From: Balneolales bacterium ANBcel1
Lineage (GTDB): Bacteria > Bacteroidota > Rhodothermia > Balneolales > Natronogracilivirgulaceae
Direction of reading: 5' to 3'
DNA length: 64,000 bases
Assembly: GCA_029688905.1 (NCBI GenBank)
Contig: JARULB010000004.1
Location: 1 to 64,000, forward strand
Part shown: positions 1 through 13,929 of the stretch, one piece after another
Numbering within the stretch: position 1 is the stretch's first letter
How the letters are laid out: the number at the start of each line of letters is the position of its first letter
Translations under genes and position numbers: made by a program
The notes under the pieces: model-generated
Told to the model about the DNA's origin: nothing
The model's database searches: none
What the model saw: only the letters and a program-made list of their open reading frames with translations

Positions 1-20
1 TGCGGGGCAAAGCTTATACA

Positions 21-893
21 ATGGAAATAGGTCCGCAGTACAATAAAGACAGTTTCTTCAAAGCTGCTGCACGGTTGCACCAGTCAAACTATCGTGCAAG
101 GATACTTAAAGTTGATTATTTAGAATACGGCAATCGTCTTACAGAGCATGATGGACGAGCGCTAATGAACTACTATGATGGGCTTGGAGTGAAAGAAGCT
201 TTGAGGAAAAGATATCCTCACTATTCTCAAAAACGAGATGCCGACCTTCTCAGAAGTGAACATATCCCGTTTAATATGCTTGCACCTCTTGTCCACAAGC
301 CAGTCCTGATGAAAAAAGTACTGAGTGAAGTTTTCGGGTTAAAACTAATCGATCCAATTGAATTAAAGCTTGAATGGGCTCCATTCCCAGCAGATAAGTA
401 TTTAGGTGATTTGACCTCATTCGATACCTATATTTGCGGGAGAAATCAAAATGGGGAACGTATTGGACTGGGAATTGAAGTAAAGTACACGGAACGTGGC
501 TATAGAATTGGAGCATCGGAAGCCAAACGAGTGCAAGATTCAAATTCAAGCTATTGGATTGTAACCAGGGAATCGGGAGTTTTTTCTTCAAATAGTCACG
601 AAGAGTTGGCGTCAGATAATCTGAGACAAATTTGGAGAAATCATTTACTCGGTCTGTCTATGGTGAAGAACAATGATATTGACAAGTTTATTTCAGCCAC
701 GTTGTATCCTGCGGGTAATGATCACTTTCAGCATGCATTGAGCGACTATCAAAATCATCTTCAAGCAAGTGCCCGAAGGGATTTTTTTGGCTGTACTTTT
801 GAACAATACATAAGCAGTTTAAGCGGAGATAGCGAGATTGAAGACTGGAAAGAATATTTAAGTACGAGGTATCTTTTTGAAATGCCCGCATAA
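21..893 (+). CDS. Cassette-borne PD-(D/E)XK-type nuclease-like protein
   Basis: A 290-aa soluble protein of no named family. Around residues 137-155 it reads TSFDTYICG, then IGLGIEVKYTE. A lone Asp followed about 15 residues later by E-x-K on a beta strand is the core of the PD-(D/E)XK nuclease fold, and the EVKYTE form resembles PGN_0703-like restriction-type nucleases. The rest is charged with no membrane segment. It is the sole gene of the first cassette. Its stop codon lies inside the R'' core of the cassette's own attC, so almost no sequence is wasted. The start at 21 leaves only 24 bp from the cassette border, so the promoter is probably supplied from upstream. Nuclease assignment is inference from the D...ExK spacing. 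A role in phage defence is possible from context but not shown. Confidence 0.6.
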   Translation: MEIGPQYNKDSFFKAAARLHQSNYRARILKVDYLEYGNRLTEHDGRALMNYYDGLGVKEALRKRYPHYSQKRDADLLRSEHIPFNMLAPLVHKPVLMKKVLSEVFGLKLIDPIELKLEWAPFPADKYLGDLTSFDTYICGRNQNGERIGLGIEVKYTERGYRIGASEAKRVQDSNSSYWIVTRESGVFSSNSHEELASDNLRQIWRNHLLGLSMVKNNDIDKFISATLYPAGNDHFQHALSDYQNHLQASARRDFFGCTFEQYISSLSGDSEIEDWKEYLSTRYLFEMPA

Positions 894-1019
894 CAAGCAT
901 TTCAAGCGAATTTTGCCGTATGTTGGTGATTTTGGGCTTCAGTGCTTGAAGATAGTCCGGTTTTTTACCACTTTATTAATCAGAAATGGCAAAATCGCTT
1001 AAATGCAAGACCGTTACAA
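888..1019 (+). other. attC1 integron recombination site
   Basis: R'' end GCATAAC and R' end GTTACAA enclose a 132-bp imperfect palindrome. The left arm GCATTTcAAGCGaATTTTGCC pairs with the right arm GGCAAAATCGCTTAAATGC except for two unpaired left-arm bases (lower case). These extrahelical bases are the hallmark of folded attC sites. Length is in the range of Vibrio repeats. It ends the nuclease cassette. Confidence 0.85.
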
Positions 1020-1043
1020 GGCAGTTTTAGCCAATAAATAGTC

Positions 1044-2156
1044 TTAGAGATTTACACGATAACTTGTACTTCTTCCTCCTGCTTTTCCGTAGCGTACAAA
1101 TGCTCCCATTTCGACTAACTGCTGAATATCTCTTGTTGCTGTAGCTTTTGAAACCTTGGTTATCCCTACATACTTCCTGGCATTCATTCCGCCTTCAAAT
1201 CCGTCCGGTCCCTCGTCCAACATCCGGTTAATTACTTTCTCCTGACGTTTGCTGAACTGATCTTTATATTTATCAAAAAACTTGACTTTTCGCAACGTAA
1301 ATTCTATCTGTCGTTCGGATTTTTCCTGCGACTGGAGTAAAAGATCAATAAAGTAATGGATCCACTTAGTCACCTCATTCGATCGCTGTCCGACTTTCAA
1401 CGCATTGTAGTAAGCCTTTTTATTGGACTCTATGGTTTCAGACAAACTTAATAATACCGGACGACCTATACTCTGAGACAGTGCCTTTTCTGCAATGGCC
1501 CGCCCGATCCGTCCATTTCCATCTTCAAATGGGTGAATCGATTCAAAATACAAATGCGCAAGCCCACTACGAATCGGTGCATTCTGCAATTGCTTTTTTC
1601 CGGCCGGGTCGGTTTTATTGAACCAATCTATAAATTGATCCATCTCTGAAGGTACCTGCGAAGATGGCGGAGCTTCAAAATGAATTTTTTCTTTACCCAT
1701 GGCGCCAGATATCACCTGCATAGGCTCATTGTGTGTTCGCCATTTTCCGACCATGATTTTGTCGCTATCACCAAACAACATCCGGTGCCAACGAAAAAGC
1801 ATCTGCCTGGTAAGTGGCTGTTTAAATGATTTTCTCACATCGATCATGAGTTCACCCACCCCTTCGGCTTTGGGATCCTTTATCACCGATGGGGAAACGT
1901 GTAGCCCCAGATTTTTTCGAATGGACGATAATACATCTTGCCGGCTTACAAACTCCCCTTCTATTTCAGAGGTTTTGACAGCTTCCTCCAGCATCAGATT
2001 AATGAGGGTTTCTTGCTGGATGTCTTCTGGCAAGGATTCCAGTATTCCCGATATGCGTCCAACTTTTTCGGCAAACGTAAATAGTTTATCCTCAAGTCCT
2101 GAAAGACTATAAGTAAAATGTGGCCAATCGGTTTGTTGCCAGTTATATTGTCTCAT
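1044..2156 (-). CDS. Fic family protein with N-terminal DUF4172-like part and C-terminal winged helix
   Basis: A 370-aa Fic-domain protein. The Fic signature HPFEDGNGRIGR lies at about residues 206-217 and is intact, so AMP transfer (or another nucleotidyl or phosphoryl transfer) to a target hydroxyl is expected. Upstream, TSEIEGE near residue 60 fits the class II self-inhibitory motif (S/T)xxxE(G/N). The N-terminus MRQYNWQQTDWPHF matches the DUF4172 start found on such Fic proteins. The C-terminal 70 residues look like a winged helix (VSKATATRDIQQLVEMGAF), as in Fic proteins that bind DNA. I chose the ATG at 2156, not the longer frame to 2246, because of that family start and because the only good promoter ends six bases before it. 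The gene runs against the direction of its cassette. A target protein cannot be named. Confidence 0.85.
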   Translation of the reverse strand: MRQYNWQQTDWPHFTYSLSGLEDKLFTFAEKVGRISGILESLPEDIQQETLINLMLEEAVKTSEIEGEFVSRQDVLSSIRKNLGLHVSPSVIKDPKAEGVGELMIDVRKSFKQPLTRQMLFRWHRMLFGDSDKIMVGKWRTHNEPMQVISGAMGKEKIHFEAPPSSQVPSEMDQFIDWFNKTDPAGKKQLQNAPIRSGLAHLYFESIHPFEDGNGRIGRAIAEKALSQSIGRPVLLSLSETIESNKKAYYNALKVGQRSNEVTKWIHYFIDLLLQSQEKSERQIEFTLRKVKFFDKYKDQFSKRQEKVINRMLDEGPDGFEGGMNARKYVGITKVSKATATRDIQQLVEMGAFVRYGKAGGRSTSYRVNL

Positions 2157-2230
2157 GAGCCAATTATAACACACATTCGGCTCATTATCAACATATTTTA
2201 TGAGCCGCTTAAGTAGTTTATTCGGCTCAT
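2154..2230 (-). promoter_or_regulatory. fic promoter with two paired operator repeats; predicted leaderless mRNA
   Basis: On the minus strand TTGATA (2186-2191) and TATAAT (2163-2168) are exactly 17 bp apart, and TATAAT ends six bases before the ATG. The transcript would have little or no leader. Four copies of the 7-mer ATGAGCC/GGCTCAT at 2155-2161, 2179-2185, 2200-2206 and 2224-2230 form two identical inverted repeats, each ATGAGCC-N17-GGCTCAT, 45 bp apart. One overlaps -35, -10 and the start codon. This looks like a repressor site; autoregulation by the Fic protein's own winged helix is an inference. Confidence 0.75.
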
Positions 2231-2259
2231 AACCCAATAATGTCAAATGAAAGTCTGCC

Positions 2260-2382
2260 TTGTAACAACGGTTTCAACCTGACAGCGGATCATGTTTCTA
2301 CAAAATTCACTGCTGGAGAGAATGCTTCTCGCATTCTCTGAGTGCAGCGTAGCCGCTGCAGGTTAAACCTGAACCGTTAGAG
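2260..2382 (+). other. attC2 integron recombination site
   Basis: R'' TTGTAAC and R' GTTAGAG enclose a 123-bp palindrome. GGTTTcAACCTGaCAGCGG pairs with CCGCTGCAGGTTAAACC, again with two unpaired left-arm bases. The 12 bases at 2255-2266 (CTGCCTTGTAAC) are the exact reverse complement of 1013-1024, as expected if both came from one circular fic cassette. Confidence 0.87.
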
Positions 2383-2488
2383 CAACCCATAAATTTTGCT
2401 CTTAAACACCTTAAGCCTCAATAATAAACGCACCTTCTTCCCGGCAGCAGTCTCTAGCCGATCCTTTTTTTTTATTTGGTGAATGTTC

Positions 2489-2498
2489 GCATATATGC
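2489..2498. promoter_or_regulatory. Candidate HigA operator upstream of higB
   Basis: The 10-bp perfect palindrome GCATATATGC, inside TTcGCATATATGCtAA, lies 12 bp before the higB start. Position and symmetry fit an autoregulatory site for the Xre-type antitoxin encoded second. No binding data; inference only. Confidence 0.4.
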
Positions 2499-2510
2499 TA
2501 ACTTCTCTCC

Positions 2511-2870
2511 ATGCGCGTTATACAATTCTACCGAACAGAATCCGGGAAAGTACCTGTAAAGGAATTTCTGAGAAGTCTTCCAGACAAGTTCTCCAAAAAA
2601 ATTGCCTGGACACTTCGCGCTGTTCGTGAAACGGATCCAGTTCCTACTCAATACCTTAAAAAACTCACTAATTCAGATGATATTTGGGAAATCCGGGCAA
2701 CCTTGGGCAATAATACCTTTCGATTGCTCGGTTTTTTTGACCACTCCAAACTTATCATACTTACCAACGGATTTGCCAAAAAGTCTCAAAAAGTACCAAA
2801 ACAAGAAATCATCCTGGCTGAACAACGAAAACAAGATTATTACCGGAGAAAATCTCATGATCAAAGATGA
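2511..2870 (+). CDS. higB: HigB-like RelE-superfamily toxin (Gp49 family)
   Basis: A 119-aa protein of the phage-Gp49/HigB branch of RelE toxins, which cut mRNA on the ribosome. The family pattern is clear: [18 protein letters not shown] at the start, the core [21 protein letters not shown] near residues 60-77, then a hydrophobic strand [17 protein letters not shown]. The final 30 residues are basic. The toxin gene comes first and overlaps the antitoxin by 14 bp, the order typical of higBA and opposite to most type II pairs. It is the first gene of its cassette and reads with the array. Confidence 0.87.
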
Positions 2871-3138
2871 CCTTGAAATCTTCATTGAAGAAAAAAAAGC
2901 CGAAAGTCCGGAATTTGCTGAGAATTTCGAAGAAGGATATCTGAATTTTAAAATTGGAGTACTTCTTCGTCAGGCTCGCGAAGAAATGGGTGCCACCCAG
3001 GAACAAGTGGCCAAAAAGCTGAATACGACCAAGTCGGTGATTTCCCGAATGGAAAATCATGCCGAGGATATTCGACTTTCCACCCTTACAAAGTATGCCA
3101 AAGCACTCGGTAGAAAAGTTAAACTCGAAATTCAGTAG
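2857..3138 (+). CDS. higA: HigA-like Xre-family antitoxin
   Basis: A 93-aa protein beginning [13 protein letters not shown], with an Xre helix-turn-helix at about residues 35-90 ([20 protein letters not shown] then [19 protein letters not shown]). It should neutralise the upstream HigB and repress the operon. The ATG at 2857 was chosen over the frame's longer reading back to 2602 because it gives the family N-terminus and has a CGGAGA motif about 8 bases upstream. It overlaps the toxin end, so the two are translated together. The cassette's attC begins 125 bp after its stop. Confidence 0.87.
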
Positions 3139-3263
3139 ATAATGATTTCCGCTGATTCTTGACCAATTCCCATAAGGTTGTTTGACATATTTGCATGGAA
3201 GTGTGGCCTGATCTCAAGATAGAATCCATCAAGAAATTCTTTACACTTGGCAAGTTACGGTTG

Positions 3264-3351
3264 CTCTAACAATCGCATCAACCGGGCGTGTGTGGGGCTT
3301 CTGCCCCATTATAACCGGCTGCCACGTCGGTTATGCGCGGGACCGTTAGCG
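3264..3351 (+). other. attC3 integron recombination site
   Basis: R'' CTCTAAC and R' GTTAGCG enclose 88 bp with arms GCATcAACCGG and CCGGCTGC...GGTTATGC and a GGGGC/GCCCC inner stem. The 12 bases at 3259-3270 are the exact reverse complement of 2376-2387 at the start of the higBA cassette. The stem also sits right behind arsA and could act as its terminator. Confidence 0.85.
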
Positions 3352-3378
3352 TTCAGCTCAAACCATATCCTTCTTCAT

Positions 3379-5160
3379 TCAAGATAGTTGCTGAGGGATT
3401 TGCAGCATCTGAGTGAGAACCGGATCATCAACGATAAAAGGGATGCTGTACAGCTTGCTTGCCTCTTCTTTTTTAACGCGTTTCAGAAGCGGCTTCTCGG
3501 CAGCGGCCCGCATTTTCAGAATCGGGTCTGACAGCTCTGAAGAGGATGCATTCATGCTTTGATTCGCTATCCATGCATATGGCTCAATACCCGACCTTCT
3601 CAAATCGTCCTGCAGTTTTGAAGCCTCCGATATGGGTGTTGTTTCGGGCAGTGTTACCAACAGTAGTTTTGTGAACTTCGGATCCTGAAGATAACGTAAA
3701 GGCGTTTTCAGATTTCCAGTGTCTACATTGCTGTTTCTCATCACTTCCCGGTGATAGCTTCCTGTGGTATCCAGCAGCAGTAAGGTATGGCCTGTTGGAG
3801 CCGTATCTACCACCACAAATTTTCGTTTAGCCTGGTGTATCGCTTTCGAAAAAGCATGAAATACGGCGACCTCCTCTGTGCAGGGTGATTCCAGGTCTTC
3901 CTTCAGAAGGCGTAGTTCCTCATCCGTCTTGTCCTTTCCTTTTTGCCGGAGTACCTTTTCGATGTATGCCTGCTTTTCGGCTTGAGGATCGATCCGGTTC
4001 AGTTCCAGATTTTCCGGCAGCGTGATCTCTTCAAGATAATCTGTTAAATGCGCAGCCGGATCAGTCGTGGTTAGGTGAACCGGATACCCTTGTTCGGCAA
4101 GTCTTAATGCAATGGCCGCAGCAACCACCGTTTTACCGACTCCGCCCTTACCCATGGTCATAATCAGTCCGTGATCTGAGCTTTTCGCCAGGTCTTCTGC
4201 CAATTGGTTCAGGTCCGGCAGCGCTGTTTCCGGCTCAGCCGTAAGACCATTCTCACTTACCCGTGCTGCTTCTTTTTTGTCAAGCGGTTCAAAAACCTGC
4301 CTGAGCCTTTCGATTCCAAGCAGATTCCACGGACGCAGCGGAAAGGTGTGATGCTTCAGGTTCTTCAACCGTTTCGGCATTTGGTCAATCGTCTGCTTCA
4401 TCATAGCAGACAATTTCACAGCGAAGGGATCGGTCTCGTCAGCCGGTTCAAACAACCCATTGATCAGCAGTTCCTGGTTGGTCAGCCCCATGTCAAGCAG
4501 CTCTCTGCCGGAGCGATCAGCTTCCCGCAGTGCGGTAGTTTCCGGACGTGTAACAAGGTAGATGGTGGTTGTTTGCGGATCCTTCAGACGCTCAACCACT
4601 TTCCGGTACCGCTCCTGGTTGGTTTTCAGGGCAGAAGACGGCCCAAGACAGGAGGCTCCATCCGGGTTTTCATCAATAAATTTACTCCAGGCAGCCGGCA
4701 GCTCCAGAAGACGGAGCGTGTGTCCGGTTGGGGCCGTATCAAAAATGATTACATCATACGGCTTATTGTCCCCATCTCCGGCGATGTACCGTGCGAACTC
4801 ATCAAAAGCGGCGATTTCCGTGGTGCAGGCCCCGGACAACTCCTCCCGGATACGATCAATATCCTGCTGAGTCAAAATATCTTCCAGCGGCGAAATCACA
4901 CGCTGCCGGTATGCTTCGGCTGATGTTTCCGGATCAATATTAACGACGTGCAAATTTGATACGCCATTTACCGGGGCAACTTTTTCGGTTACCTCTGTTT
5001 CAAGCACATCCTTGAGATTAGAGGCCGGATCGGTACAAATCAGAAGCACAGATTTACCGCTGTCGGCAAGCCTGATAGCCGTTGCGCTGGCGAGTGATGT
5101 TTTACCAACCCCGCCTTTTCCGGTGAAAAAGATGAAGGGAGTAGAGTCTGAAATATTCAT
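3379..5160 (-). CDS. arsA: ArsA arsenite-pump ATPase, two-domain form
   Basis: A 593-aa tandem ArsA. Each half carries a deviant Walker A GKGGVGKT (near residues 15 and 335) and the switch motif DTAPTGHTL. Cysteines occur in the matching places (GACTTEIAAF and SPCTEEVAVF), as in the metalloid-binding site of E. coli ArsA. The enzyme hydrolyses ATP to drive arsenite or antimonite extrusion through ArsB and receives metalloid from ArsD. The ATG at 5160 gives the standard N-terminus just before the first P-loop; the reading frame continues upstream to 5361 inside arsD, but that part has no family match. It lies 40 bp after arsD. No ArsB, Acr3 or ArsC gene follows: the next feature is attC3. Confidence 0.93.
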   Translation of the reverse strand: MNISDSTPFIFFTGKGGVGKTSLASATAIRLADSGKSVLLICTDPASNLKDVLETEVTEKVAPVNGVSNLHVVNIDPETSAEAYRQRVISPLEDILTQQDIDRIREELSGACTTEIAAFDEFARYIAGDGDNKPYDVIIFDTAPTGHTLRLLELPAAWSKFIDENPDGASCLGPSSALKTNQERYRKVVERLKDPQTTTIYLVTRPETTALREADRSGRELLDMGLTNQELLINGLFEPADETDPFAVKLSAMMKQTIDQMPKRLKNLKHHTFPLRPWNLLGIERLRQVFEPLDKKEAARVSENGLTAEPETALPDLNQLAEDLAKSSDHGLIMTMGKGGVGKTVVAAAIALRLAEQGYPVHLTTTDPAAHLTDYLEEITLPENLELNRIDPQAEKQAYIEKVLRQKGKDKTDEELRLLKEDLESPCTEEVAVFHAFSKAIHQAKRKFVVVDTAPTGHTLLLLDTTGSYHREVMRNSNVDTGNLKTPLRYLQDPKFTKLLLVTLPETTPISEASKLQDDLRRSGIEPYAWIANQSMNASSSELSDPILKMRAAAEKPLLKRVKKEEASKLYSIPFIVDDPVLTQMLQIPQQLS

Positions 5161-5200
5161 GGATTGTCTCTCTGAAAGTGATCGTTTTAAAAATCGACTG

Positions 5201-5776
5201 TTAGCAGCAACCGCCGCCGGGCGTGCAACCGTTTTGGGGTACTCCCAGCAGTTCATTTGCCGTTTGAACCAGCTGCTGTGTAGTCGCTTGTCGCTCATTA
5301 AGACCGGATTGCATCGCCTGAACAATATCCGGCAGGTCAATGCCGTGCGCCTGCCCTTCACGGAATTTCACTGTCATCTCTGCCGAATCACCCATTATTA
5401 CTGTGTGCCTGATATTTTCTAACAGGTTGTTTTTAAATGCTTCCAAATCATTATTGATGGCAGTCTCACTCTGTATTCCAAGCCATGCACAGAGCTGATT
5501 GCGGTCGGGGTAACCACCTTCAGATGCAACTTCATTGTTGACCAGAATTACCGGCAGTACATTCGTCCCCTCTTTTTGCAGTCGTGCCAGCACGTGAGCG
5601 TTGCTTTTAAACGCTTCCGGCTCCTGCCCGAGATTAAAGCGTTTCACTTCAATCCCTTTGCTTTTCAGCCATTTCACATCGTTGGCAAAATCGGCAAGGG
5701 TATCATCTACGTCGGTACCGCATACGCCGGTGCTGCAGCACATGGCAGGGTCATATATTTCAATGGTTGTGTTCAT
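5201..5776 (-). CDS. arsD: ArsD arsenic metallochaperone/repressor with a C-terminal extension
   Basis: A 191-aa protein. Residues 1-110 are a typical ArsD: EIYDPAMCCSTGVCGTDVD at the N-terminus carries the conserved Cys pair plus a third Cys that binds As(III), and the thioredoxin-like fold follows (NVLPVILVNNEVASEGGYP). ArsD hands arsenite to ArsA. Ordinary ArsD is about 110-130 aa; here some 70 residues follow (KFREGQAHGIDLPDIVQAMQ...), faintly like the helical repeat of AhpD/carboxymuconolactone decarboxylases but without their CxxC. The protein ends in CTPGGGCC, a probable soft-metal site. It has its own operator and promoter and is followed by arsA after 40 bp. Confidence 0.9.
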   Translation of the reverse strand: MNTTIEIYDPAMCCSTGVCGTDVDDTLADFANDVKWLKSKGIEVKRFNLGQEPEAFKSNAHVLARLQKEGTNVLPVILVNNEVASEGGYPDRNQLCAWLGIQSETAINNDLEAFKNNLLENIRHTVIMGDSAEMTVKFREGQAHGIDLPDIVQAMQSGLNERQATTQQLVQTANELLGVPQNGCTPGGGCC

Positions 5777-5805
5777 TTCTAAATGTGTTTGATAATAGGG
5801 TTTAT

Positions 5806-5843
5806 TTAATCGTAAAATTACGATTAATAAGATCGGGTTCCAA
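5806..5843 (-). promoter_or_regulatory. arsDA promoter with ArsR operator
   Basis: TTAATCGT-N6-ACGATTAA (5806-5827) is the same inverted repeat as in front of arsR. On the minus strand a TTGGAA (5838-5843) and TAATTT (5815-5820), 17 bp apart, form a promoter whose -10 lies in the operator. This gives arsDA a start of transcription independent of the arsR-phosphatase unit. Confidence 0.72.
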
Positions 5844-5868
5844 CCTCATTTGTTCTTATGATTTGATT

Positions 5869-6633
5869 TTATCCACCGTTTCGCAGCATATCGGCAAACT
5901 CACCGGGCAATGGGCTCTCCTCAACGGCTTTAGCAGCTTGTTCAACATCATACTCTACCCTGATGAATTCGACCTTCAGATCGTTTTTATCGTTCAGATC
6001 CAGATCACCATCCCACTCAATCATGGCATAGCATGCGCGGGGATCTCCGTCTTTGGGCTTACCGACTGATCCGATATTAATGGCATGTCGTATCTCTCCG
6101 CTTTCATCCTCTATGGTTTTATGATAGGGCTTGTGCGTATGGCCAAACGCCATCACATGGGTATCAGCCTTTTGCATCATTCTAAGCATGCTTTTTTCGG
6201 CGCGATCTTCAAATAGGTACTCGTTGATTTTCCGCGGACTCCCGTGCACCATCAGGAAGTTCCAGGGATTACCGTTCACGCCGAACTCAAGTCTCAGATG
6301 TGCCGGCAGTGAGCGTAAGTAGGCCCGGTTCCCGGAACTAATCATTCGGTTTGTATATGTGATTGAGTCAACACCCCTCGCCTCATCCTCCGGCGTTTTG
6401 TACGCGCAGCCGCAGTCGTCGCTGGAAAGCCCGACGCCCTGATCGTAATTCCCGGCAATGACTGGAATTCCTTTCGAGCGAATCAGTTCAACCACTTCGT
6501 TTGGATAGGGTGCATAGCCAACCAGGTCACCGAGGCAGTACACAGCGTCAGGTTTCCTTTGTTCAATGTCTTTTAATACGGGAGTGAGAGCGTCAATATT
6601 TGCGTGGATATCACTAAACAGGGCGACTTTCAT
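5869..6633 (-). CDS. Calcineurin-like metallophosphoesterase in the ars operon
   Basis: A 254-aa cytoplasmic phosphoesterase of the YfcE/MJ0936-like group. The metal-binding motifs appear in order: DIHAN (residues 8-12), GDLVGY (36-41), GNYD, VHG, and GHTH near residue 165. The reaction is hydrolysis of a phosphomono- or diester with a two-metal centre; the substrate is unknown. The CGC pair in SSDDCGCAYKTP sits beside the active site and is not a general family feature I can name. The gene starts three bases after the arsR stop and is therefore co-transcribed with it, suggesting arsenic-induced expression. A link to arsenate or organophosphate chemistry is inference. Confidence 0.85.
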   Translation of the reverse strand: MKVALFSDIHANIDALTPVLKDIEQRKPDAVYCLGDLVGYAPYPNEVVELIRSKGIPVIAGNYDQGVGLSSDDCGCAYKTPEDEARGVDSITYTNRMISSGNRAYLRSLPAHLRLEFGVNGNPWNFLMVHGSPRKINEYLFEDRAEKSMLRMMQKADTHVMAFGHTHKPYHKTIEDESGEIRHAINIGSVGKPKDGDPRACYAMIEWDGDLDLNDKNDLKVEFIRVEYDVEQAAKAVEESPLPGEFADMLRNGG

Positions 6634-6635
6634 AG

Positions 6636-6959
6636 TTAGCAGCAGGTTTGTATAAGTTCGGTTGATAATTCGGAGAGAACGGATTGAAGCTCACGGATTC
6701 CCTCCGGATTGAGGCAGTAGCAGGTTTTCACTCCCTCGACTTCTCCGGTAATCAGGCCGGCATTTTTCAATGCTTTCAGGTGTTGAGAAACCGTTGATTG
6801 AGCCAAAGGCAGGAATTCAGTAATATCTCCGCAGAAGCAGGTTGTTCTTTGAGCAAGAATTTTGAGAATGGTTATCCTGGCAGGATGCCCGATGGCTTTT
6901 GCGATTTCGGCAGATCGCTGTATGGACTTCTCATTAATTGAGATATCTTTGAGTTTCAT
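6636..6959 (-). CDS. arsR: ArsR-family metalloregulatory repressor
   Basis: A 107-aa winged-helix repressor. The recognition helix LAQSTVSQHLKALKNAGLI lies at about residues 52-70, preceded by TTCFCGDITEFL, where the CxC pair on the alpha-3 helix is the classical As(III) sensor. Further Cys residues follow in GVKTCYCLNPEG and at the very end (QTCC). It should repress its own unit and arsDA through the TTAATCGT-N6-ACGATTAA sites and release them when arsenite binds. It is the first gene of the ars unit, with the phosphatase almost touching. Confidence 0.93.
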   Translation of the reverse strand: MKLKDISINEKSIQRSAEIAKAIGHPARITILKILAQRTTCFCGDITEFLPLAQSTVSQHLKALKNAGLITGEVEGVKTCYCLNPEGIRELQSVLSELSTELIQTCC

Positions 6960-6970
6960 AATTAGGAATT

Positions 6971-7020
6971 TTAATCGTCGTTTTACGATTAAATGTAACA
7001 GTAGCTTTTATTGTTTCCAA
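6971..7020 (-). promoter_or_regulatory. arsR promoter with ArsR operator
   Basis: The inverted repeat TTAATCGT-N6-ACGATTAA (6971-6992) ends 12 bp before the arsR start. A TTGGAA (7015-7020) and TACATT (6992-6997), 17 bp apart on the minus strand, form the promoter. The -35 hexamer, spacer and operator arms are identical to those before arsD, so one repressor is likely to govern both. Confidence 0.72.
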
Positions 7021-7046
7021 ATAATAAAGGCGTAACCTGAACCTTA

Positions 7047-7836
7047 GTATCAACTTTGAAGTGCAACAATCAGAAACGGTGTTCATAGCATTCCTTCGGC
7101 GTTTTGAAGCCCAGAACCTTTCGTGGGCGTGAGTTGAGTTTTTCACTTATGGCGTTACAATGATGCTGATTTATGTGGGCCATACTTTTTCGTTTCGGCA
7201 GGTACTGGCGAATCAATCCATTGGTATTTTCATTGGTTCCCCGCTGCCAGGAGTGGTACGGGGTGGCAAAGTAGAATCGAACACCAAGATGCTCTTCGAT
7301 GTCCGCGTAACTGTGAAACTCCGTCCCGTTATCACTGGTGATAGTCTTAAATCGCCTTTGGTGCTGCTTAATGAGCTGTATGGCTCGCTTTTTTGTTTCC
7401 TGCTTGCTTCGATTCGCCAGCTTTCCGATCAACGTGTACCGGGTTTTGCGTTCCACAAGCGTTAAGATACAGTGCTGATCCCCGCTTCCAACAACGGTAT
7501 CAACTTCCCAGTGGCCAATCGTCTTTCGGGTTTCCACAGAGGCCGGCCGCTCCGAAATATGGTGTTTACCGGCAAGACGTCCCCTGCTGTCTTTGCTGTT
7601 ATGGCGTTTTCGTCGCTGTTTCTGTGCTCCGCGAAGATGGGTGTAGAGCTTGCCGCCCGCCGCCTTATCGGCCCATATATACCGGTAAATCGTCTCATGC
7701 GAAATAGAAAGAAGCTTTTTGCGGCTCAGCCATGCCGAGATCTGCTGTGGGCTCCATTGCTGTTTGAGAAAGTACCACACCTTGAGTTTATCCCGGTCAC
7801 TGAACTGTTCGTTACGCCGAGATCGCGAGCGGCGGC
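7047..7836 (-). mobile_element. IS30-family insertion sequence, copy 1, lacking its 5' part
   Basis: The element starts with the terminal sequence GTATCAACTTTGAAG at 7047, identical to that of copy 2 at 12820. It holds most of an IS30-type transposase gene but no second terminal repeat: at about 7836 it runs straight into a group II intron reverse transcriptase. It follows CTTA, the remains of an attC R'' end. Confidence 0.8.
7070..7836 (-). pseudogene. IS30-family transposase, N-terminus missing, fused to RT fragment
   Basis: About 255 residues. The second helix-turn-helix (WSPQQISAWLSRKKLLSISH) and the DDE catalytic domain are present: GHWEVDTVVG with the first Asp, TSDNGTEF with the second, and NENTNGLIRQYLPK with the Glu. 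The family's N-terminal helix-turn-helix (about 60-80 residues) is absent. The frame is open and continuous with the intron reverse transcriptase, so a single 478-residue chimeric ORF results. Without its own start and first DNA-binding domain it is unlikely to transpose. The catalytic part itself has no stop, unlike copy 2. Confidence 0.82.
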
Positions 7837-8506
7837 CGTTGGTCTTCTCCATCCACTTGTCAAACACGATATCCATGAAAATATTGGCCAGTACAGGGCT
7901 GATAGCCCCACCCTGTGGCGTACCTTTTCCATCGGGGTGTTTGTGCGTTCCGTCAGCCAGCTCCACAGGGGCTTCAAGCCATCGCTGCACATACATCAGG
8001 ATATGCTTCTTCCCGGTGTAGTGATGCACGGCTTTGATCAGCAACTCATGGTCTATATGGTCGAAAAACCCTTTGATGTCCAGGTCAATGACCCAGCTGT
8101 ACTTCAGACAGTTGCTGCGGCATTGCGCTATGGCCTGATGGGCCGACCTGCCGGGTCGATAGCCATAGCTGTTCGGACTGAAATGGGGATCGACGATAGC
8201 TTCCAATTCGGTTGCTATGACCTGTTGGGCTGTTCGATCGATTATGGTCGGGATGCCCAGCGGGCGCATCTTGCCATTGCCTTTGGGTATCCATGTCTGG
8301 CGGACCGATTTGGGAAAGTAGCTTCCGCTTGCCATTCTGTTCCACAATGGATACAGATATTTACGCAGGTTTTGATCCACCTGCTTTATGCTCACTTTAT
8401 CTACGCCCGCAGCTCCGCCATTGGCTTTTATTTGCTTAAAAGCCTGCATGATCTGCAACTTGCTTATCGGTTGCGTTCTGTGTTCATTTTCAAAAATCAT
8501 CCTCAA
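7837..8506 (-). pseudogene. Group II intron reverse transcriptase/maturase, 5' part only
   Basis: About 223 residues of a group II intron-encoded RT. Finger and palm motifs are clear: RPLGIPTIIDRTAQQVIATE, SYGYRPGRSAHQAI, DLDIKGFFDHIDH and GTPQGGAISPVLANIFM. The frame leaves RT sequence just before the catalytic YADD block; maturase (X), DNA-binding and endonuclease domains are missing, replaced by the IS30 transposase. The likely start is the ATG at 8500 (or TTG at 8506). The catalytic half is gone, so no RT activity is expected. Confidence 0.88.
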
Positions 8507-9158
8507 TTTGCATCAAGTTGTTTTGTGATCCATGAACTTGTTAAGTGAAGTCCTTCGCTCGCTCCGGTTTTTCCCCGAAGCTCTGTTGGGTATGGTCGCT
8601 ACTACGACTTCATCCGCCCCGGAATCCACACTTCGCTACTTTCTGCCTTACCCGCTTCGGGCTTGCGGCATTTTGGCTTGCCATTGTGGTTCCGGTTCTC
8701 CTGTTCCCTGTCAGAGCCCGGATACGGGTCTTGCCCTCTAAATGCCGTGTGCCGCGTATGCACTATCACAGGTTCCGTCATACACTTGGTCTCGCAGGGT
8801 CACACACCCCTTTGATTTTGACACAGTAACAGTTATTTCGACACGTCCACAAGGGTTCACTTGCGTTCAACTCCCGTATCCCCACCATACATACGCTCAC
8901 CGTTTATTCCGATGGCCCTTGCTTTGACCTTGACGCTCAGTACCGGCCCTTTTAAGGCAAGCACCTCAAGGCGGTTTGGTAAATACGCCTGTACATCTTT
9001 ACCGACAGTCCGACTCCCCTGTCTCACCGGGTTGCATCCGCACTGTTATCATAACCTTAGGATTAGGTGCAACAGAAGTCTGTCATCTCTGGCAGAGTTT
9101 TATTACCATTTTCAAAGAACTTATCATTCTTCGTACCCTGTGGTAATTCAGGACACAC
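8507..9158 (-). ncRNA. Group II intron RNA, domains I-IV 5' part (truncated intron)
   Basis: Read on the minus strand, the 650 bp before the RT have the layout of a group II intron ribozyme. They include a GTGTG start at 9158 and the conserved TGAACGCAAG element about 290 nt later (near 8865), the same distance as in the Lactococcus Ll.LtrB intron. A GC-rich stem follows just before the ORF, as in domain IV. Domains V and VI, normally after the RT, are absent. The exact 5' end is inferred from GTGYG and spacing only. Confidence 0.6.
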
Positions 9159-9162
9159 GGGT

Positions 9163-9253
9163 AGCTAACAAGGCGTTTCATACGGACTCGTTTTAGGTTC
9201 GGGACTTTAATTTGAACAACTCGGTTCGCCGCTTAAACGCTGGGTCGTTAGAT
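9163..9253 (+). other. attC4 integron recombination site
   Basis: R'' AGCTAAC and R' GTTAGAT enclose 91 bp; GGCGTTTc pairs with AAACGC and the inner arms pair imperfectly. Its R'' is not complementary to the start of the ars cassette (GTTAGCGTTC), so it probably belongs to another cassette whose body was lost. The group II intron ends four bases to its left. Confidence 0.75.
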
Positions 9254-9431
9254 ACCTCATAATCACTACCAGGTTAAATTCATACCCCTTCTCTGATACT
9301 GTACCATTCTTCACTTCTTCATCTATGATGAACTGGGACCATACTCGTATTTGTCCCTACTCGTTCTTTATACTGATGACATTGTTCCCTTTTTCGTTTT
9401 TTTTTACCACCTTACTGAGTAACTTCTTTAT

Positions 9432-9653
9432 ATGATTACTGATAAGCCAAATAAAATCATTTCTCGTAACAAAGACATTCTCGGTGGAACTCCCGTCTTT
9501 CATGGCACTCGTGTCCCCATTAAAACGCTTTGGGATTATCTGAAAGCCGGTGATTCTCTGGAAGACTTCCTCGAAGACTTCCCTTCCGTGAAACGAAAGC
9601 AGGCTGTTGCCCTTATTGAGCGAGCTCAAAATCGTCTTACCAAAATTTCATGA
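9432..9653 (+). CDS. DUF433 antitoxin-like protein
   Basis: A 73-aa DUF433 protein. The family core ILGGTPVFHGTRVPIKTLWDYLKAGDSLEDFLEDFP fills residues 17-52, with a helical C-terminus. DUF433 proteins have a helix-turn-helix-like fold and are usually found as the antitoxin-like partner in front of a PIN-like DUF5615 protein, as here. The stop overlaps the next start by 4 bp (ATGA), indicating translational coupling. About 180 bp separate it from the cassette border, enough for its own promoter. Confidence 0.85.
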   Translation: MITDKPNKIISRNKDILGGTPVFHGTRVPIKTLWDYLKAGDSLEDFLEDFPSVKRKQAVALIERAQNRLTKIS

Positions 9654-9985
9654 CTCGCATTCTCCTTGACGAATGTCTACCGGTCAAACTTCAGCATCGC
9701 TTTTTGGAACTCGATGATTCTTTTCATGTTGCAACCGTCACCGGGAAAAACTGGAATGGGATTAAAAATGGGAAACTGCTCGAATTGGCTCAGGAAAGTT
9801 TTGATATTTTTATCACTATCGACCAAAATATCCTATACCAGCAATCAGTTTCCAAGTTTTCCATTGCATTAATTGCCTTACAAGCAAAATCAAATCGATA
9901 TAACGACCTGCTTCCTTTTCTAGAGCCAACCGTTAAGATCATTAAAAATTGCAAACCGGGTAAGTCTTATACCGTTTCAATATGA
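9650..9985 (+). CDS. DUF5615 PIN-like protein, probable toxin
   Basis: A 111-aa protein opening with MTRILLDECLPVKLQHRF, the DUF5615 signature in which D and E replace the usual PIN acidic pair, and a later acidic pair in FDIFITIDQNILYQQ. PIN-like folds of this family are predicted ribonucleases. It pairs with the upstream DUF433 protein, with overlapping ATGA. Toxic activity is inferred from the family and the pair arrangement. Confidence 0.85.
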   Translation: MTRILLDECLPVKLQHRFLELDDSFHVATVTGKNWNGIKNGKLLELAQESFDIFITIDQNILYQQSVSKFSIALIALQAKSNRYNDLLPFLEPTVKIIKNCKPGKSYTVSI

Positions 9986-10021
9986 TAACGGGTATTATGC
10001 CTGTTCACTGGGAGTTTCGGT

Positions 10022-10109
10022 ATCTAACATACGCATCAACCGGTCGTGTGGGGCGTTTCCGCCCCATTATAACCGGCTGGCCACGCCGGTTATGCGTTTG
10101 GCGTTATAC
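10022..10109 (+). other. attC5 integron recombination site
   Basis: R'' ATCTAAC and R' GTTATAC enclose 88 bp. GCATcAACCGG pairs with CCGGTTATGC leaving one unpaired C, and GGGGC pairs with GCCCC. Positions 10019-10028 are the exact reverse complement of 9247-9256. The core differs from attC7 at one base. Confidence 0.88.
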
Positions 10110-10134
10110 CACACATAATCACCCCAGCCGTAAG

Positions 10135-10506
10135 TTATTTCTCTGGTAATTCAGATAGTTTAATTCGAGCATATGCACCATGTTTTTTGTCTTCCGGATG
10201 TGGTTCAATTCCTAATATGGTAATCTCTTTGCGATTTGGGCCATATGCCCAATAAAATCGCCTGGCTGTTTTCCCTTGATCCAAATACGATTGCCATATT
10301 TTGATCCCATATTTTCTACTCAAGGGTTCAATTTCGTGAGTTTTTAATCCCGGATGTTTTGGATTCACACTCAGATTTGTGATGGCTTTACCCAAGCGAT
10401 TAAATAGCTCATTCTCGTCAGAATTCAACGAATTGGCTTTGCGCTTCTCTAGCAACGAGCTCCAAAACGCTTCCATCTCAGGAACTCCCATACGAATTGT
10501 AAACAT
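10135..10506 (-). CDS. RelE/ParE-like toxin
   Basis: A 123-aa basic protein following the small antitoxin-like gene after four bases. The middle reads LGKAITNLSVNPKHPGLKTHEIEPL..YGIKIWQSYLDQGKTARRFYWAYGPN..ITILGIEPHPE, the strand order of RelE/ParE toxins, with the shared ITxLGIxPHPE type end. The target (ribosome-bound mRNA or gyrase) cannot be told. The gene is antiparallel to the cassette array. The assignment rests on this layout and on the pairing. Confidence 0.7.
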   Translation of the reverse strand: MFTIRMGVPEMEAFWSSLLEKRKANSLNSDENELFNRLGKAITNLSVNPKHPGLKTHEIEPLSRKYGIKIWQSYLDQGKTARRFYWAYGPNRKEITILGIEPHPEDKKHGAYARIKLSELPEK

Positions 10507-10510
10507 GGAT

Positions 10511-10768
10511 TTAGTCCAAGAGTTTATTCAGTTCGTCCAAATCAACCGGGGCGGAGACGCTCCCCTTTTTCAAATGATCAACCGATTGGTCGATCATTTT
10601 CAAAGTCTTCTGAGAAATGGCATCAGGATGAACTAATACTCTTGGGCTAAGCTCAATGGTCCCATCTTGTTTTTCACGAACCCGATAATACATCGTCTTT
10701 GCTCCCCGAAGAGTCAATCGCTTCTTGGAGTCGAGTCGGGCATCATATTCTTTAATTGCTCGTGCCAT
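10511..10768 (-). CDS. Probable antitoxin, AbrB-like N-terminus
   Basis: An 85-aa acidic protein, MARAIKEYDARLDSKKRLTL at the start, then strands (YYRVREKQDGTIELSPRVLV) and a short helix ending in VDLDELNKLLD. The looped strand pattern resembles swapped-hairpin AbrB antitoxins. I use the ATG at 10768, because the longer frame to 10852 would run through the palindromic operator. It precedes the RelE-like toxin by four bases and probably binds both the toxin and the upstream palindrome. Confidence 0.62.
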   Translation of the reverse strand: MARAIKEYDARLDSKKRLTLRGAKTMYYRVREKQDGTIELSPRVLVHPDAISQKTLKMIDQSVDHLKKGSVSAPVDLDELNKLLD

Positions 10769-10813
10769 AATTTTCACGTCATTTATATTATCACTAATCA
10801 AAGATAGCGATAT

Positions 10814-10829
10814 GTGGGATTTCCCACAA
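10814..10829. promoter_or_regulatory. Palindromic operator of the reverse toxin-antitoxin pair
   Basis: TGTGGGA-TT-TCCCACA, a perfect 16-bp palindrome 45 bp before the antitoxin ATG. On the minus strand TTGTGG and TATCTT stand 17 bp apart around it, a plausible promoter. This would place the antitoxin on its own -35 region. Confidence 0.55.
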
Positions 10830-10908
10830 TAGGTGTCGCAAATTTTTACCATGAGCTTTATACTGGCATGGATGTACTCCTACGCACTTAGTTAATATAT
10901 TCTGTGTG

Positions 10909-11003
10909 GTATAACAACCGTTTCGTGCGTTCGTGTATATACCTGTTGCTGTTGCCCTTGCACTTAAACAAAGCCACGCCGCACAAACGGGTGGCCGTTA
11001 GCG
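10909..11003 (+). other. attC6 integron recombination site
   Basis: R'' GTATAAC and R' GTTAGCG enclose 95 bp. CCGTTTcGTGCG pairs with CGCACAAACGG leaving one unpaired C. Positions 10903-10915 are the exact 13-base reverse complement of 10103-10115. Confidence 0.87.
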
Positions 11004-11094
11004 CTCATTTTCAATACCAGCTTATCATTTTTTCACGTTAAGTAATTATTTTGTACTTTAATTGTACGACATATTGTCCCCTAATTGCAAAACA

Positions 11095-11388
11095 ATGGCT
11101 ATCTCCAATTTTTCTTTAGAGCAAGATATTCAACCCCTTTCTGAATTCAGGAAAAATGCTGCTGATTTTATTGGGCGTCTTAAGCGTGAAAAGCGATCAA
11201 TAGTGCTGACTCAGCATGGCAAAAGTGCTGCTGTTCTTGTTGATGTTTCCGAATACCAACAAATGATTGATAAAATTACTCTCATGGAAGAACTCATGGA
11301 AGCAGACGGCCAAATTGCTCGTGGAGAAGTGATTGCTCATGAAGATGCTAAACAACAAATCCGTGAAAACCTGGCCAAGTGGAAGTAA
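11095..11388 (+). CDS. Phd/YefM-family antitoxin
   Basis: A 97-aa antitoxin with the Phd/YefM fold: PLSEFRKNAADFIGRLKREKRSIVLTQHGKSAAVLVDVSEYQQM at about residues 14-58 is the DNA-binding domain, and the C-terminal third is the acidic toxin-binding tail (EDAKQQIRENLAKWK). The ATG at 11095 was chosen over the frame start at 11062 because it gives the usual short N-terminus. It overlaps the toxin start by 10 bp. A direct repeat TTGTAC-N5-TTGTAC at 11051-11067 just upstream may be its operator. Confidence 0.87.
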   Translation: MAISNFSLEQDIQPLSEFRKNAADFIGRLKREKRSIVLTQHGKSAAVLVDVSEYQQMIDKITLMEELMEADGQIARGEVIAHEDAKQQIRENLAKWK

Positions 11389-11684
11389 TCTGGACAAAAC
11401 TTGCGATCCAAAGAGTTAATTCTATCGTAAACTATATCGCTCAGGATAATTTCCAAGCCGCACATAAGTGGTCTGAGCTTATTTTTGAGAGAACAGATCA
11501 GCTCATTGAGCATCCTGAATCAGGTAGAATTGTACCTGAATACAACCATCCCGATCTAAGAGAAATCATTGAAGGAAATTACAGAATCATATACCGGATT
11601 CGAAAACCAAAGCGAGTAGTATACATCACAACGGTTCTCCATGTCCGGCAAAAACCGCCCCAATCCGGCAAGTTCTTACGATAA
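11379..11684 (+). CDS. ParE/RelE-family toxin
   Basis: A 101-aa toxin of the ParE group: VIWTKLAIQRVNSIVNYIAQDN..AAHKWSELIFERTDQL..HPESGRIVPEYNHPDLREIIEGNYRIIYRI. The PDLREI..GNYRIIYRI block with Arg-Glu is the family signature. It is coupled to the Phd-type antitoxin upstream. The class ParE poisons DNA gyrase and RelE cuts mRNA; sequence alone leans to ParE. Confidence 0.87.
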   Translation: MEVIWTKLAIQRVNSIVNYIAQDNFQAAHKWSELIFERTDQLIEHPESGRIVPEYNHPDLREIIEGNYRIIYRIRKPKRVVYITTVLHVRQKPPQSGKFLR

Positions 11685-11712
11685 GTTACTATATCACTCA
11701 GATACTCAAGTA

Positions 11713-11937
11713 ATGAAGAAAGAACCGTTCGACGAATTTATCGAGAGCATCAAACAAGCCGGCAAAATCCAAGAAGGTGAACTAAATGCTTCTCAAAGAA
11801 TTGTAATTACCGATTCCGATGTCGCTGAAACCCGCAAGAATTACAATTTGAATCAGCAGGAATTTTCTTCTCGCTTTTGAATCGGTGCTAGCAAATTTCA
11901 CAAATGGGTACAGGGTGAAGAAAGTCACTTGCACTAG
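11713..11937 (+). pseudogene. Xre-type antitoxin gene broken by one nonsense codon
   Basis: From the ATG at 11713 the frame reads MKKEPFDEFIESIKQAGKI..IVITDSDVAETRKNYNLNQQEFSSRF, then TGA at 11878-11880. The same frame goes on as IGASKFHKWVQGEE to a stop at 11937. Together this is the start and DNA-contact part of an Xre helix-turn-helix like those of HigA/MqsA-type antitoxins, and a single base (GGA to TGA) would explain the stop. It lies at the end of the Phd/ParE cassette and could be a remnant of an older gene. A 55-aa truncated product might still be made. Confidence 0.6.
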
Positions 11938-12008
11938 CCAGAGTAGTTTAAAAAGTTGTAGATAGAATGATCAAAGCAATTTTTGATACCCTATCAACCT
12001 AAATTTCG

Positions 12009-12096
12009 CGCTAACATGCGCATCAACCGGTCGTGTGGGGCGTTTCCGCCCCATTATAACCGGCTGGCCACGCCGGTTATGCGTTTGGCGTTAAGT
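12009..12096 (+). other. attC7 integron recombination site
   Basis: R'' CGCTAAC and R' GTTAAGT enclose 88 bp. Arms as in attC5, from which the core differs by one base. Positions 12008-12015 are the reverse complement of 10997-11004, at the start of the same cassette. Confidence 0.88.
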
Positions 12097-12131
12097 GGCT
12101 ATCATAACTTGCAATAATCAGTCCCCTATAT

Positions 12132-12161
12132 TAGTTTCATTACTATACCACAACGAAACTA
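12132..12161. promoter_or_regulatory. Candidate operator of the FitA/VapC pair
   Basis: TAGTTTC (12132-12138) and GAAACTA (12155-12161) are an inverted repeat spaced by 16 bp, ending 7 bp before the antitoxin ATG, with TATACC between them as a possible -10. Ribbon-helix-helix antitoxins bind such sites. Confidence 0.5.
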
Positions 12162-12168
12162 TCGAGCC

Positions 12169-12408
12169 ATGCCAAGCATAACTGTCAAAAACATTCCTGA
12201 GCCAATTTACCAGCAGCTCAGAAAGCGTGCACAAGCTCAACATCGCAGTATTAATAGTGAAATTATTGCGTGCTTGGAGCAAACTACACTACCTCATCGC
12301 CCCTCTCCGGAGGAATTTCTTCTACAAGCTCAAAAAATTAGGAAACAAGTAAAAGGTAGTCTCTCTGCTCAACTCATTCAAAAAGCCATTGATCAGGGTA
12401 GGCCGTGA
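12169..12408 (+). CDS. FitA/VapB-like ribbon-helix-helix antitoxin
   Basis: A 79-aa antitoxin. MPSITVKNIPEPIYQQLRKR..QHRSINSEIIACLEQT over residues 1-45 is the ribbon-helix-helix DNA-binding domain as in FitA. The remaining tail should wrap the VapC toxin. It is coupled to vapC by a 4-bp GTGA overlap. Confidence 0.9.
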   Translation: MPSITVKNIPEPIYQQLRKRAQAQHRSINSEIIACLEQTTLPHRPSPEEFLLQAQKIRKQVKGSLSAQLIQKAIDQGRP

Positions 12409-12806
12409 TTGTAGTTGATACCAATATCATTGCACATTTCTGGCTGCCATCTGATCATTCTCAACTCTGTGACCAGGTTTTTGAACAGGATCCGGAATGG
12501 ATCGCCCCTGTCTTATGGATCAGTGAATTCAGAAATGTAGTGAGCTTATATTTGAGGAAACAGTTGATCGATTTGAGTAAGGCCTTACAAATTTCAGAGA
12601 AAGCCCAGGAGTTGATGAAAGATCGGCAGTTTCATGTTCATTCATCGCAAGTATTTGAATTTGTAAACAAATCCAATTGCTCTTCTTACGATTGTGAGTT
12701 TGTATGTCTTGCTAATGACATGTCAGTACCACTGATTACTTTGGACAAAAAAGTACTGAATTCATTTCCAGATATTGCGACACACCCCACAAATTTTTTA
12801 TCCTGA
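12405..12806 (+). CDS. VapC-family PIN-domain toxin
   Basis: A 133-aa PIN ribonuclease. The acidic residues are in place: MIVVDTNIIAHFW (first Asp), WISEFRNVV (Glu near residue 45), and SSYDCEFVCLAND (Asp), then LITLDKKVL. The family cuts tRNA or rRNA in a metal-dependent way. It starts with GTG overlapping the antitoxin stop. It is the last intact cassette gene of the array; its attC starts at 12812 but is interrupted by an IS. Confidence 0.9.
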   Translation: MIVVDTNIIAHFWLPSDHSQLCDQVFEQDPEWIAPVLWISEFRNVVSLYLRKQLIDLSKALQISEKAQELMKDRQFHVHSSQVFEFVNKSNCSSYDCEFVCLANDMSVPLITLDKKVLNSFPDIATHPTNFLS

Positions 12807-12819
12807 TTTCCGCCACTTA

Positions 12820-13505
12820 GTATCAACTTTGAAGTGCAACAATTAAAAACGGTGTTCATAGCATTCCTTCGGCGTTTTGAAGCCCAGAACCTTTCGTGGG
12901 CGTGAGTTGAGTTTTTCACTTATGGCGTTACAATGATGCTGATTTATATGAGCCATACTTTTTCGTTTCGGCAGGTACTGGCGAATCAATCCATTGGTGT
13001 TTTCATTGGTTCCCCGCTGCCAGGAATGATACGGGGTGGCAAAGTAGAATCGGACGCCAAGGCGATCTTCAATGTCGGCGTAACTGTGAAACTCCGTCCC
13101 GTTATCACTGGTGATGGTCTTAAATCGCCTTTGATGCTGCTTAATGAGCTGTATGGCTCGTTTTTTCGTTTCCTGCTTGCTTCGATTCGCCAGCTTTCCG
13201 ATCAACATGTACCTGGTTTTGCGTTCCACAAGCGTTAAGATACAGTGCTAATCCCCGCTTCCAACAACGGTATCAACTTCCCAGTGTCCAATCGTCTTTC
13301 GGGTTTCCACCGAGGCCGGCCGCTCCGAAATATGGCGTTTGCCGGCAAGCCGTCCCCTGCTGTCTTTGCTGTTATGGCGTTTTCGTCGCTGTTTGCTAGC
13401 TCCGCGAAGATGGGTGTAGAGCTTGCCGCCTGCCGCCTTATCGGCCCATATATACCGGTAAATCGTCTCGTGCGAAATAGAAAGAAGCTTTTTGCGGCTC
13501 AGCTA
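12820..13505 (-). mobile_element. IS30-family insertion sequence, copy 2, truncated
   Basis: Starts with the same terminal GTATCAACTTTGAAG as copy 1, after GCCACTTA (12812-12819), the first eight bases of the VapC cassette's R''. It is about 95% like copy 1 by eye and ends at 13505, where the IS3-like element begins. No second terminal repeat. Confidence 0.8.
12843..13505 (-). pseudogene. IS30-family transposase fragment with internal stop
   Basis: The same transposase as copy 1, starting at LSRKKLLSISHETIYRYIW and ending in the same C-terminus. At 13230-13250 the GGATCAGCAC of copy 1 is GGATTAGCAC here, which turns Gln (CAG) into an amber stop (TAG). So the gene has lost its N-terminus and also carries a nonsense mutation. 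No activity is expected. Confidence 0.8.
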
Positions 13506-13509
13506 AGAT

Positions 13510-13929
13510 GGTCGGGAATGGTTGGACAGCTTTTTGAGGATTGTTAGTTTGATTTCAAGCTGCCGGAAGGTACCGCTTTACCGGAGGAATCTTTCCAATC
13601 CGGGAATGAGACCGCCTGGTATTATAAAAGGTTATGAGCTCAGAGCAAAGCGCATATAACTGTTGCCCGTTCTCCGGCAAGTGAAGATAGATTTTGTCGT
13701 GTTTAATGGTTCGAAAGAATCGCTCAATATGAGCATTGTCTGTTGCACGGCCCTTGCCATCCATGGAGATTTTGACCGTTTTAAGATCAGTTATGTAATT
13801 GATCGTCTGGCGTTCTTTGAGAGCTTCCAGGACTACTTTGGTCTTGAAGCTCGGCCTGAAGTGCCTGCGTTTACGTTTCATTTCAGGCAAAGTAACAGTC
13901 TGGGTTTAACTGTCCAATTTCACCCGACC
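13510..13929 (-). mobile_element. 420-bp deletion derivative of an IS3-family element
   Basis: Terminal repeats GGTCGGGAATGGTTGGACAG (13510-13529) and, inverted at 13910-13929, GGTCGGGTGAAATTGGACAG match at 15 of 20 bases. Between them is one short ORF made of the two ends of an IS3-type transposase gene pair. No flanking direct repeat is visible. The size and intact ends suggest a non-autonomous, possibly mobilisable unit. Confidence 0.72.
13555..13890 (-). pseudogene. Fused OrfA start and OrfB end of an IS3-family transposase
   Basis: The first 27 residues (MKRKRRHFRPSFKTKVVLEA) are the helix-turn-helix start of OrfA. From about residue 30 the protein switches to the end of OrfB: VKISMDGKGRATDNAHIERF, the region around the last catalytic residue, then FYNTRRSHSRIGKIPPVKRYL. 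Roughly 900 bp that would hold the rest of OrfA and the first two catalytic acids are gone. The reading frame stays open across the junction. Confidence 0.75.

Follow-up and report, generated by a model that had tools for sequence, protein, structure and literature searches.

The beginning of contig C4 raises the question of whether the repeats that separate its short genes are attC sites of a true integron and, if so, where the integrase is located and what the array carries. The window, meaning the whole 64,000-nucleotide stretch that was analyzed (64 kb), starts at the first base of C4, so that the left side of the array was cut by the assembly. The genome of this strain (G000) comprises 3.32 Mb in 23 contigs.

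The original prediction had proposed seven attC-like sites in one orientation, with unpaired bases in one arm. Candidate sites (n = 7) were first picked by inspection and folding. Two covariance models were used. The first was built from the window's own seven sites, and re-finding them with this model is circular. The second, referred to below as the independent model, was built from 55 attC sites adjoining integron integrases, taken only from other genomes of the order. With the independent model, seven sites spanning positions 886–12098/12099 were detected:

886–1021, plus strand (bottom strand folds): attC1, closes cassette 1; 64.7 bits, E = 4.7e-13
2258–2384, plus strand: attC2, closes cassette 2; 42.2 bits, E = 6.6e-8
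3262–3353, plus strand: attC3, closes cassette 3; 54.0 bits, E = 1.3e-10
9161–9255, plus strand: attC4, closes cassette 4; 63.1 bits, E = 1.1e-12
10020–10112, plus strand: attC5, closes cassette 5; 59.5 bits
10907–11005, plus strand: attC6, closes cassette 6; 51.4 bits
12007–12099, plus strand: attC7, closes cassette 7; 55.1 bits

These were exactly the seven candidates, all of them scored well (E = 5e-13 to 7e-8), and no further attC was found in the 64-kb window at E ≤ 10. The sites share a single orientation and have lengths of 92–136 bp. In folding, the hairpin was formed by the bottom strands, and one arm contains a conserved extrahelical base, as had been proposed. In the training set, 92.8% of cells were paired and two-sided changes occurred in 11 of 15 pairs, counts that lean towards the structure of the first model, to which the training alignment was fitted; the observed covariation was reached in 0 of 500 shuffles.

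The individual sites are poorly conserved in sequence, which could be taken to mean that they are chance inverted repeats lying between unrelated toxin-antitoxin (TA) genes rather than integron attC sites. Against this stand the restriction of the model's matches to these seven sites and the fact that sites of the same model adjoin integrases in other genomes. Chance inverted repeats are refuted by the way the independent model was built, by its covariation and by its search of the window, and the probability left to them is vanishingly small. The window array was thereby confirmed as a real integron gene-capture array. Some of its sites have close counterparts in related genomes: attC2 is 85% identical to an attC upstream of intI in G001, attC4 about 82% identical to attC sites of the G021 and G054 arrays, and attC5 and attC7 are 92% and 93% identical, respectively, each to an attC of the G005 array.

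The genes and other elements associated with these sites are as follows:

21–893, plus strand: cassette 1 (cut by the contig start), PD-(D/E)XK nuclease (Pfam PDDEXK_13, E = 6e-58)
1044–2246, minus strand: cassette 2, Fic-domain protein, DUF4172 + Fic (Pfam Fic, 3e-18; PADLOC SoFic, 8e-47)
2511–3138, plus strand: cassette 3, TA pair, Gp49/HigB-like 2511–2870 and HTH_3 antitoxin 2857–3138 (Pfam)
3379–6959, minus strand: cassette 4, ars operon, arsR 6636–6959, phosphoesterase 5869–6633, arsD 5201–5776, arsA 3379 to about 5160
7043–7850, minus strand: IS30-family fragment, copy 1, fused in frame to the group II intron reverse transcriptase (RT) fragment (NF033563, 275 bits)
7850–9153, minus strand: group II intron, 5′ part, with N-terminal RT fragment 7850–8506 (Rfam group-II-D1D4-2 at 9018–8916, 77 bits; RVT_1, 111 bits)
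9432–9985, plus strand: cassette 5, DUF433/DUF5615-like TA pair (Pfam; toxin match just under the DUF5615 cut-off)
10135–10852, minus strand: cassette 6, two small genes, probable TA pair by gene layout only
11062–11684, plus strand: cassette 7, Phd/YefM antitoxin and ParE toxin (Pfam PhdYeFM_antitox, 9e-14; ParE_toxin, 4e-19)
12169–12806, plus strand: cassette 8, FitA-like antitoxin and PIN (VapC-like) toxin, attC missing (Pfam FitA-like_RHH, 2e-12; PIN, 7e-7)
12816–13510, minus strand: IS30-family fragment, copy 2, at which the array ends

Four TA pairs were recognized by Pfam (Gp49/HTH_3, DUF433/DUF5615, Phd/ParE and FitA/PIN). The pair of cassette 6, a probable fifth, gave no match in Pfam, NCBIfam or PADLOC and no significant match in PDB. 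The expected count of four or five TA pairs, and with it the TA-rich character of the array, was thus upheld; the ars operon, the group II intron and the IS30 copies had been absent from the earlier description. The HigBA-like unit of cassette 3 shares 74% DNA identity with a unit in the G021 integron array. Downstream of the Phd/ParE pair, positions 11641–11940 hold the remnant of a broken helix-turn-helix antitoxin with an internal stop.

The integrase had been expected to the left of the window. A single protein of the genome exceeded the integron-integrase cut-off (TIGR02249, 265 bits): it is encoded at C6:287502–288440 on the minus strand, scored 429 bits, is full length and retains the residues invariant among relatives. 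The distance from its gene to the end of C6 is 1.1 kb, and its orientation would run cassettes off that end. Upstream of the conserved integrase, the reading frame of intI continues without a stop for about 290 codons (L001 1495–3327, minus strand), and two 40-bp repeated stretches were noted there.

At the end of C6, a 36-bp attI-like block ending TTAATAAATAGTTATAG is conserved with G001, a genome of the same genus; the stretch common to both reads TTAATAA[A/T]TAGTTATAG, beyond which the sequences diverge and C6 then ends. A block followed by divergence is as expected of attI and a first cassette, and the end of C6 may accordingly be called attI-like on the strength of this one short block. 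A sequence in G005 also resembles the block, with a score no better than that of shuffles.

The expectation of an integrase to the left was borne out in part. The integrase gene exists, its orientation is right, C6 ends shortly after it and C4 starts inside the array; the junction itself stayed unproven, as no end overlaps joining C6, C12, C2 and C4 were found (C17–C23 read N). Given contig ends without overlap, the linkage of C6, C12 and C4 is inferred.

The same lack of overlap among C6, C12 and C4 would fit a different arrangement, in which the window array would be a CALIN (a cluster of attC sites that lacks an integrase of its own), a locus separate from the C6 integrase and either acted on in trans or inert. 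Cassettes with attC but no adjacent integrase do occur in this genome: two form a cluster at C2:406.8–407.9 kb, one stands alone at C4:307 kb and another lies at the end of C2. However, both C6 and C4 are interrupted where this would be expected, in compatible orientations, and in relatives intI is attached directly to arrays, in the same relative orientation, in G005, G021, G054 and G038. A separate, integrase-free locus was therefore considered rather unlikely, though still to be reckoned with.

The preferred reading, to which a probability of about 0.9 was assigned, is that the window holds the distal part of a sedentary chromosomal integron, with the integrase and an attI-like site on C6, maybe followed by C12 and then by C4. 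The contigs of 289 and 394 kb indicate a chromosomal location. Under this reading, cassettes would have been acquired singly by the IntI tyrosine recombinase, which would cut the folded attC bottom strand within the R′ box, at G/TTRRRY, and join it to attI. The array would run from the end of C6 through the gap, perhaps partly filled by C12, into C4, where IS30 would terminate it. TA pairs, present in most cassettes, would stabilise the array.

Comparable systems were observed throughout the order. Of 60 relatives, 30 encode an integrase above the cut-off; of 129 genomes of the order, 85 have attC sites at E ≤ 1e-5. When the nearest integrases from other phyla were included in a tree, the sampled Balneolales IntI proteins formed one clade (support 96/92), within which those of this genome's family were nested as a clade of their own (100/100). 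The single order-wide IntI clade indicates long residence of a sedentary integron in the lineage. Named Balneolota integrases clustered with those of the order, in agreement with the Balneolota-like host that had been surmised. Bacteroidota are among the many phyla in which integrons have been reported (PMC8618304, PMC9668308). The literature searched yielded no description of Balneolota integrons, which accords with the view that they are little described.

The four genes of the ars operon in cassette 4 were supported by profile matches (TIGR04291, 727 bits; ArsD, 141 bits; Metallophos_2; HTH_5). A permease gene is absent from the operon; Acr3 is encoded at C4:219465. Two near-identical 24-bp palindromes, at 5804–5827 between arsD and the phosphoesterase gene and at 6971–6994 upstream of arsR, are candidate ArsR operators. 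The arsR–phosphoesterase–arsD–arsA unit lies on the strand opposite to the attC sites and would presumably be driven by its own promoter.

The operon was also found in G010, a genome of a different genus, with 83% DNA identity. The homology starts at window positions 3343–3346, at CC|GTTAGCG, which is the cut point of attC3, and the sequence leftward is unrelated. A homology edge at the cut point with unrelated flanks is the trace expected from cassette movement. No attC was found next to the operon in G010, including by the independent model, and the target used there may therefore have been something other than an attC. At its other end, the unit is masked by IS30 and the intron.

That masked end, with IS30 and an intron fragment at the edge, together with ars operons that stand elsewhere in the order with no attC nearby, would suit an origin as chromosomal DNA placed between attC3 and attC4 by IS30 or other recombination. 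In contrast, the opposite edge matches G010 from the attC cut point onwards while the flanks differ, which is not expected of IS30, and an origin of the operon outside cassette movement was judged quite improbable.

At the attC4 edge, the intron domain and the RT lie on the minus strand, antisense to the cassettes and abutting attC4, as is the case for antisense insertion of group IIC-attC introns. Insertion in these introns occurs at TTGT/T in R′′ (passage on the insertion site in PMC7923331, which also describes a truncated intron in a TA-rich array); since the 5′ end, placed here from the GUGYG consensus, lies 9 bases past TTGT, the intron was not filed as group IIC-attC. Comparison with related introns of plasmids and of the order gave no alignment at that end. 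The RT fragment has 219 residues, and its best plasmid matches reached 52–56%.

The two IS30 copies are 95% identical over 688 bases. The RT fragment and the IS30 transposase are in frame in a 478-codon ORF at window positions 7070–8506; a true hybrid protein was set aside, and the fusion is probably a by-product of truncation. The group II intron would have been inserted antisense at the attC4 edge later than the cassettes, and its 3′ half would then have been removed by IS30 insertion or by a deletion.

Further attC loci were present outside the window. Contig C12 (24.5 kb) carries six attC sites and one more cut by its right end. Its last interval (C12:12628–24509; L032/L037), of about 11.7 kb and five genes, lies between two attC sites, the second being the one cut by the contig end, and is Druantia-like. 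Matches were obtained to DruE2 (1705 bits), DruM2 (526 bits), DruF/DruL-like and DruK-like proteins, together with a Vsr nuclease; a DruE helicase with partner proteins, the combination by which Druantia was called, is thus present. No close DruE homologue (E ≤ 1e-120) was found in the other genomes of the order that were searched. A restriction-modification (R-M) unit also lies between attC sites on C12.

Another C12 cassette, encoding an ion channel and a 459-residue protein, shares 87% DNA identity with a cassette of the intI-linked array in G005 (L032 10417–12720 versus L082 13848–16188). The two copies carry different attC sites in the two genera, and the switch falls just past a common R′′ sequence, TACCGTTAACA, which contains the palindrome GTTAAC. 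This pattern suggests that attC may have been replaced in a cassette common to two genera.

Cassettes with attC, single or in pairs and mostly TA, were also noted at ordinary chromosomal loci outside the main array, as if inserted at secondary sites. They comprise the C2 cluster mentioned above (L036 3457–5152) and single attC sites at C4:307 kb (L034 5034–5859) and C1:63.5 kb (L035 5013–5104). G004 was considered as a clean empty site for a lone cassette and rejected: a cystathionine-synthase-like gene, tRNA-Met and an aminotransferase gene stand there in order without the cassette, but a different small gene is present. At the wbqC locus of relatives no attC was found, a comparison in which one flank matched and the other did not.

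In several respects the system resembles the sedentary chromosomal integrons of Vibrio, Xanthomonas and others. An IntI-type integrase, a one-orientation attC array on chromosomal contigs, TA and defence cassettes and some minus-strand cassette genes are common to both. It differs in its Balneolota host, in an integrase clade of its own, in attC families common to several genera and in cassettes of four to five genes; cassettes generally contain one ORF, with two or none also seen (review PMC8618304).

With respect to the soda lake arrays TSL1/TSL2 of Tanatar-5 (PMC7923331), the passages on these arrays describe a 5′-truncated intron, whereas the present intron retains its 5′ part and has IS30 in place of its 3′ half; the same passages describe no ars operon, unlike the array reported here. 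Integrons as anti-phage libraries have been presented in Science 2025 (ads0768) and Nat Microbiol 2025 (s41564-025-01927-7), as cited in PMC12444791. As cited there, those libraries hold phage-defence cassettes; in the present genome, a predicted Druantia-like multi-gene system (11.7 kb) and the R-M unit lie between attC sites of C12.

Integrons and defence cassettes are already known; what is new is a lineage-wide Balneolota system and operon-sized cassettes. What is least certain is how the contigs are linked and whether the largest units are mobile as cassettes. It is proposed, tentatively and at somewhat less than even odds, that Balneolales possess an integron system which is ancient and specific to the order, and that its integrase moves cassettes the size of operons, among them the ars operon and the 11.7-kb Druantia-like system. 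If true, the integron would mobilise whole multi-gene systems and not single genes. The results add a bacterial lineage in which integrons appear to be common, and they provide evidence, at the level of the junction, that a metal-resistance operon of several genes can act as a cassette. The Druantia-like unit of C12 may be an example of a large phage-defence system that is carried in the same way. Both bear on how big and complex cassettes can get and on how cassettes arise.
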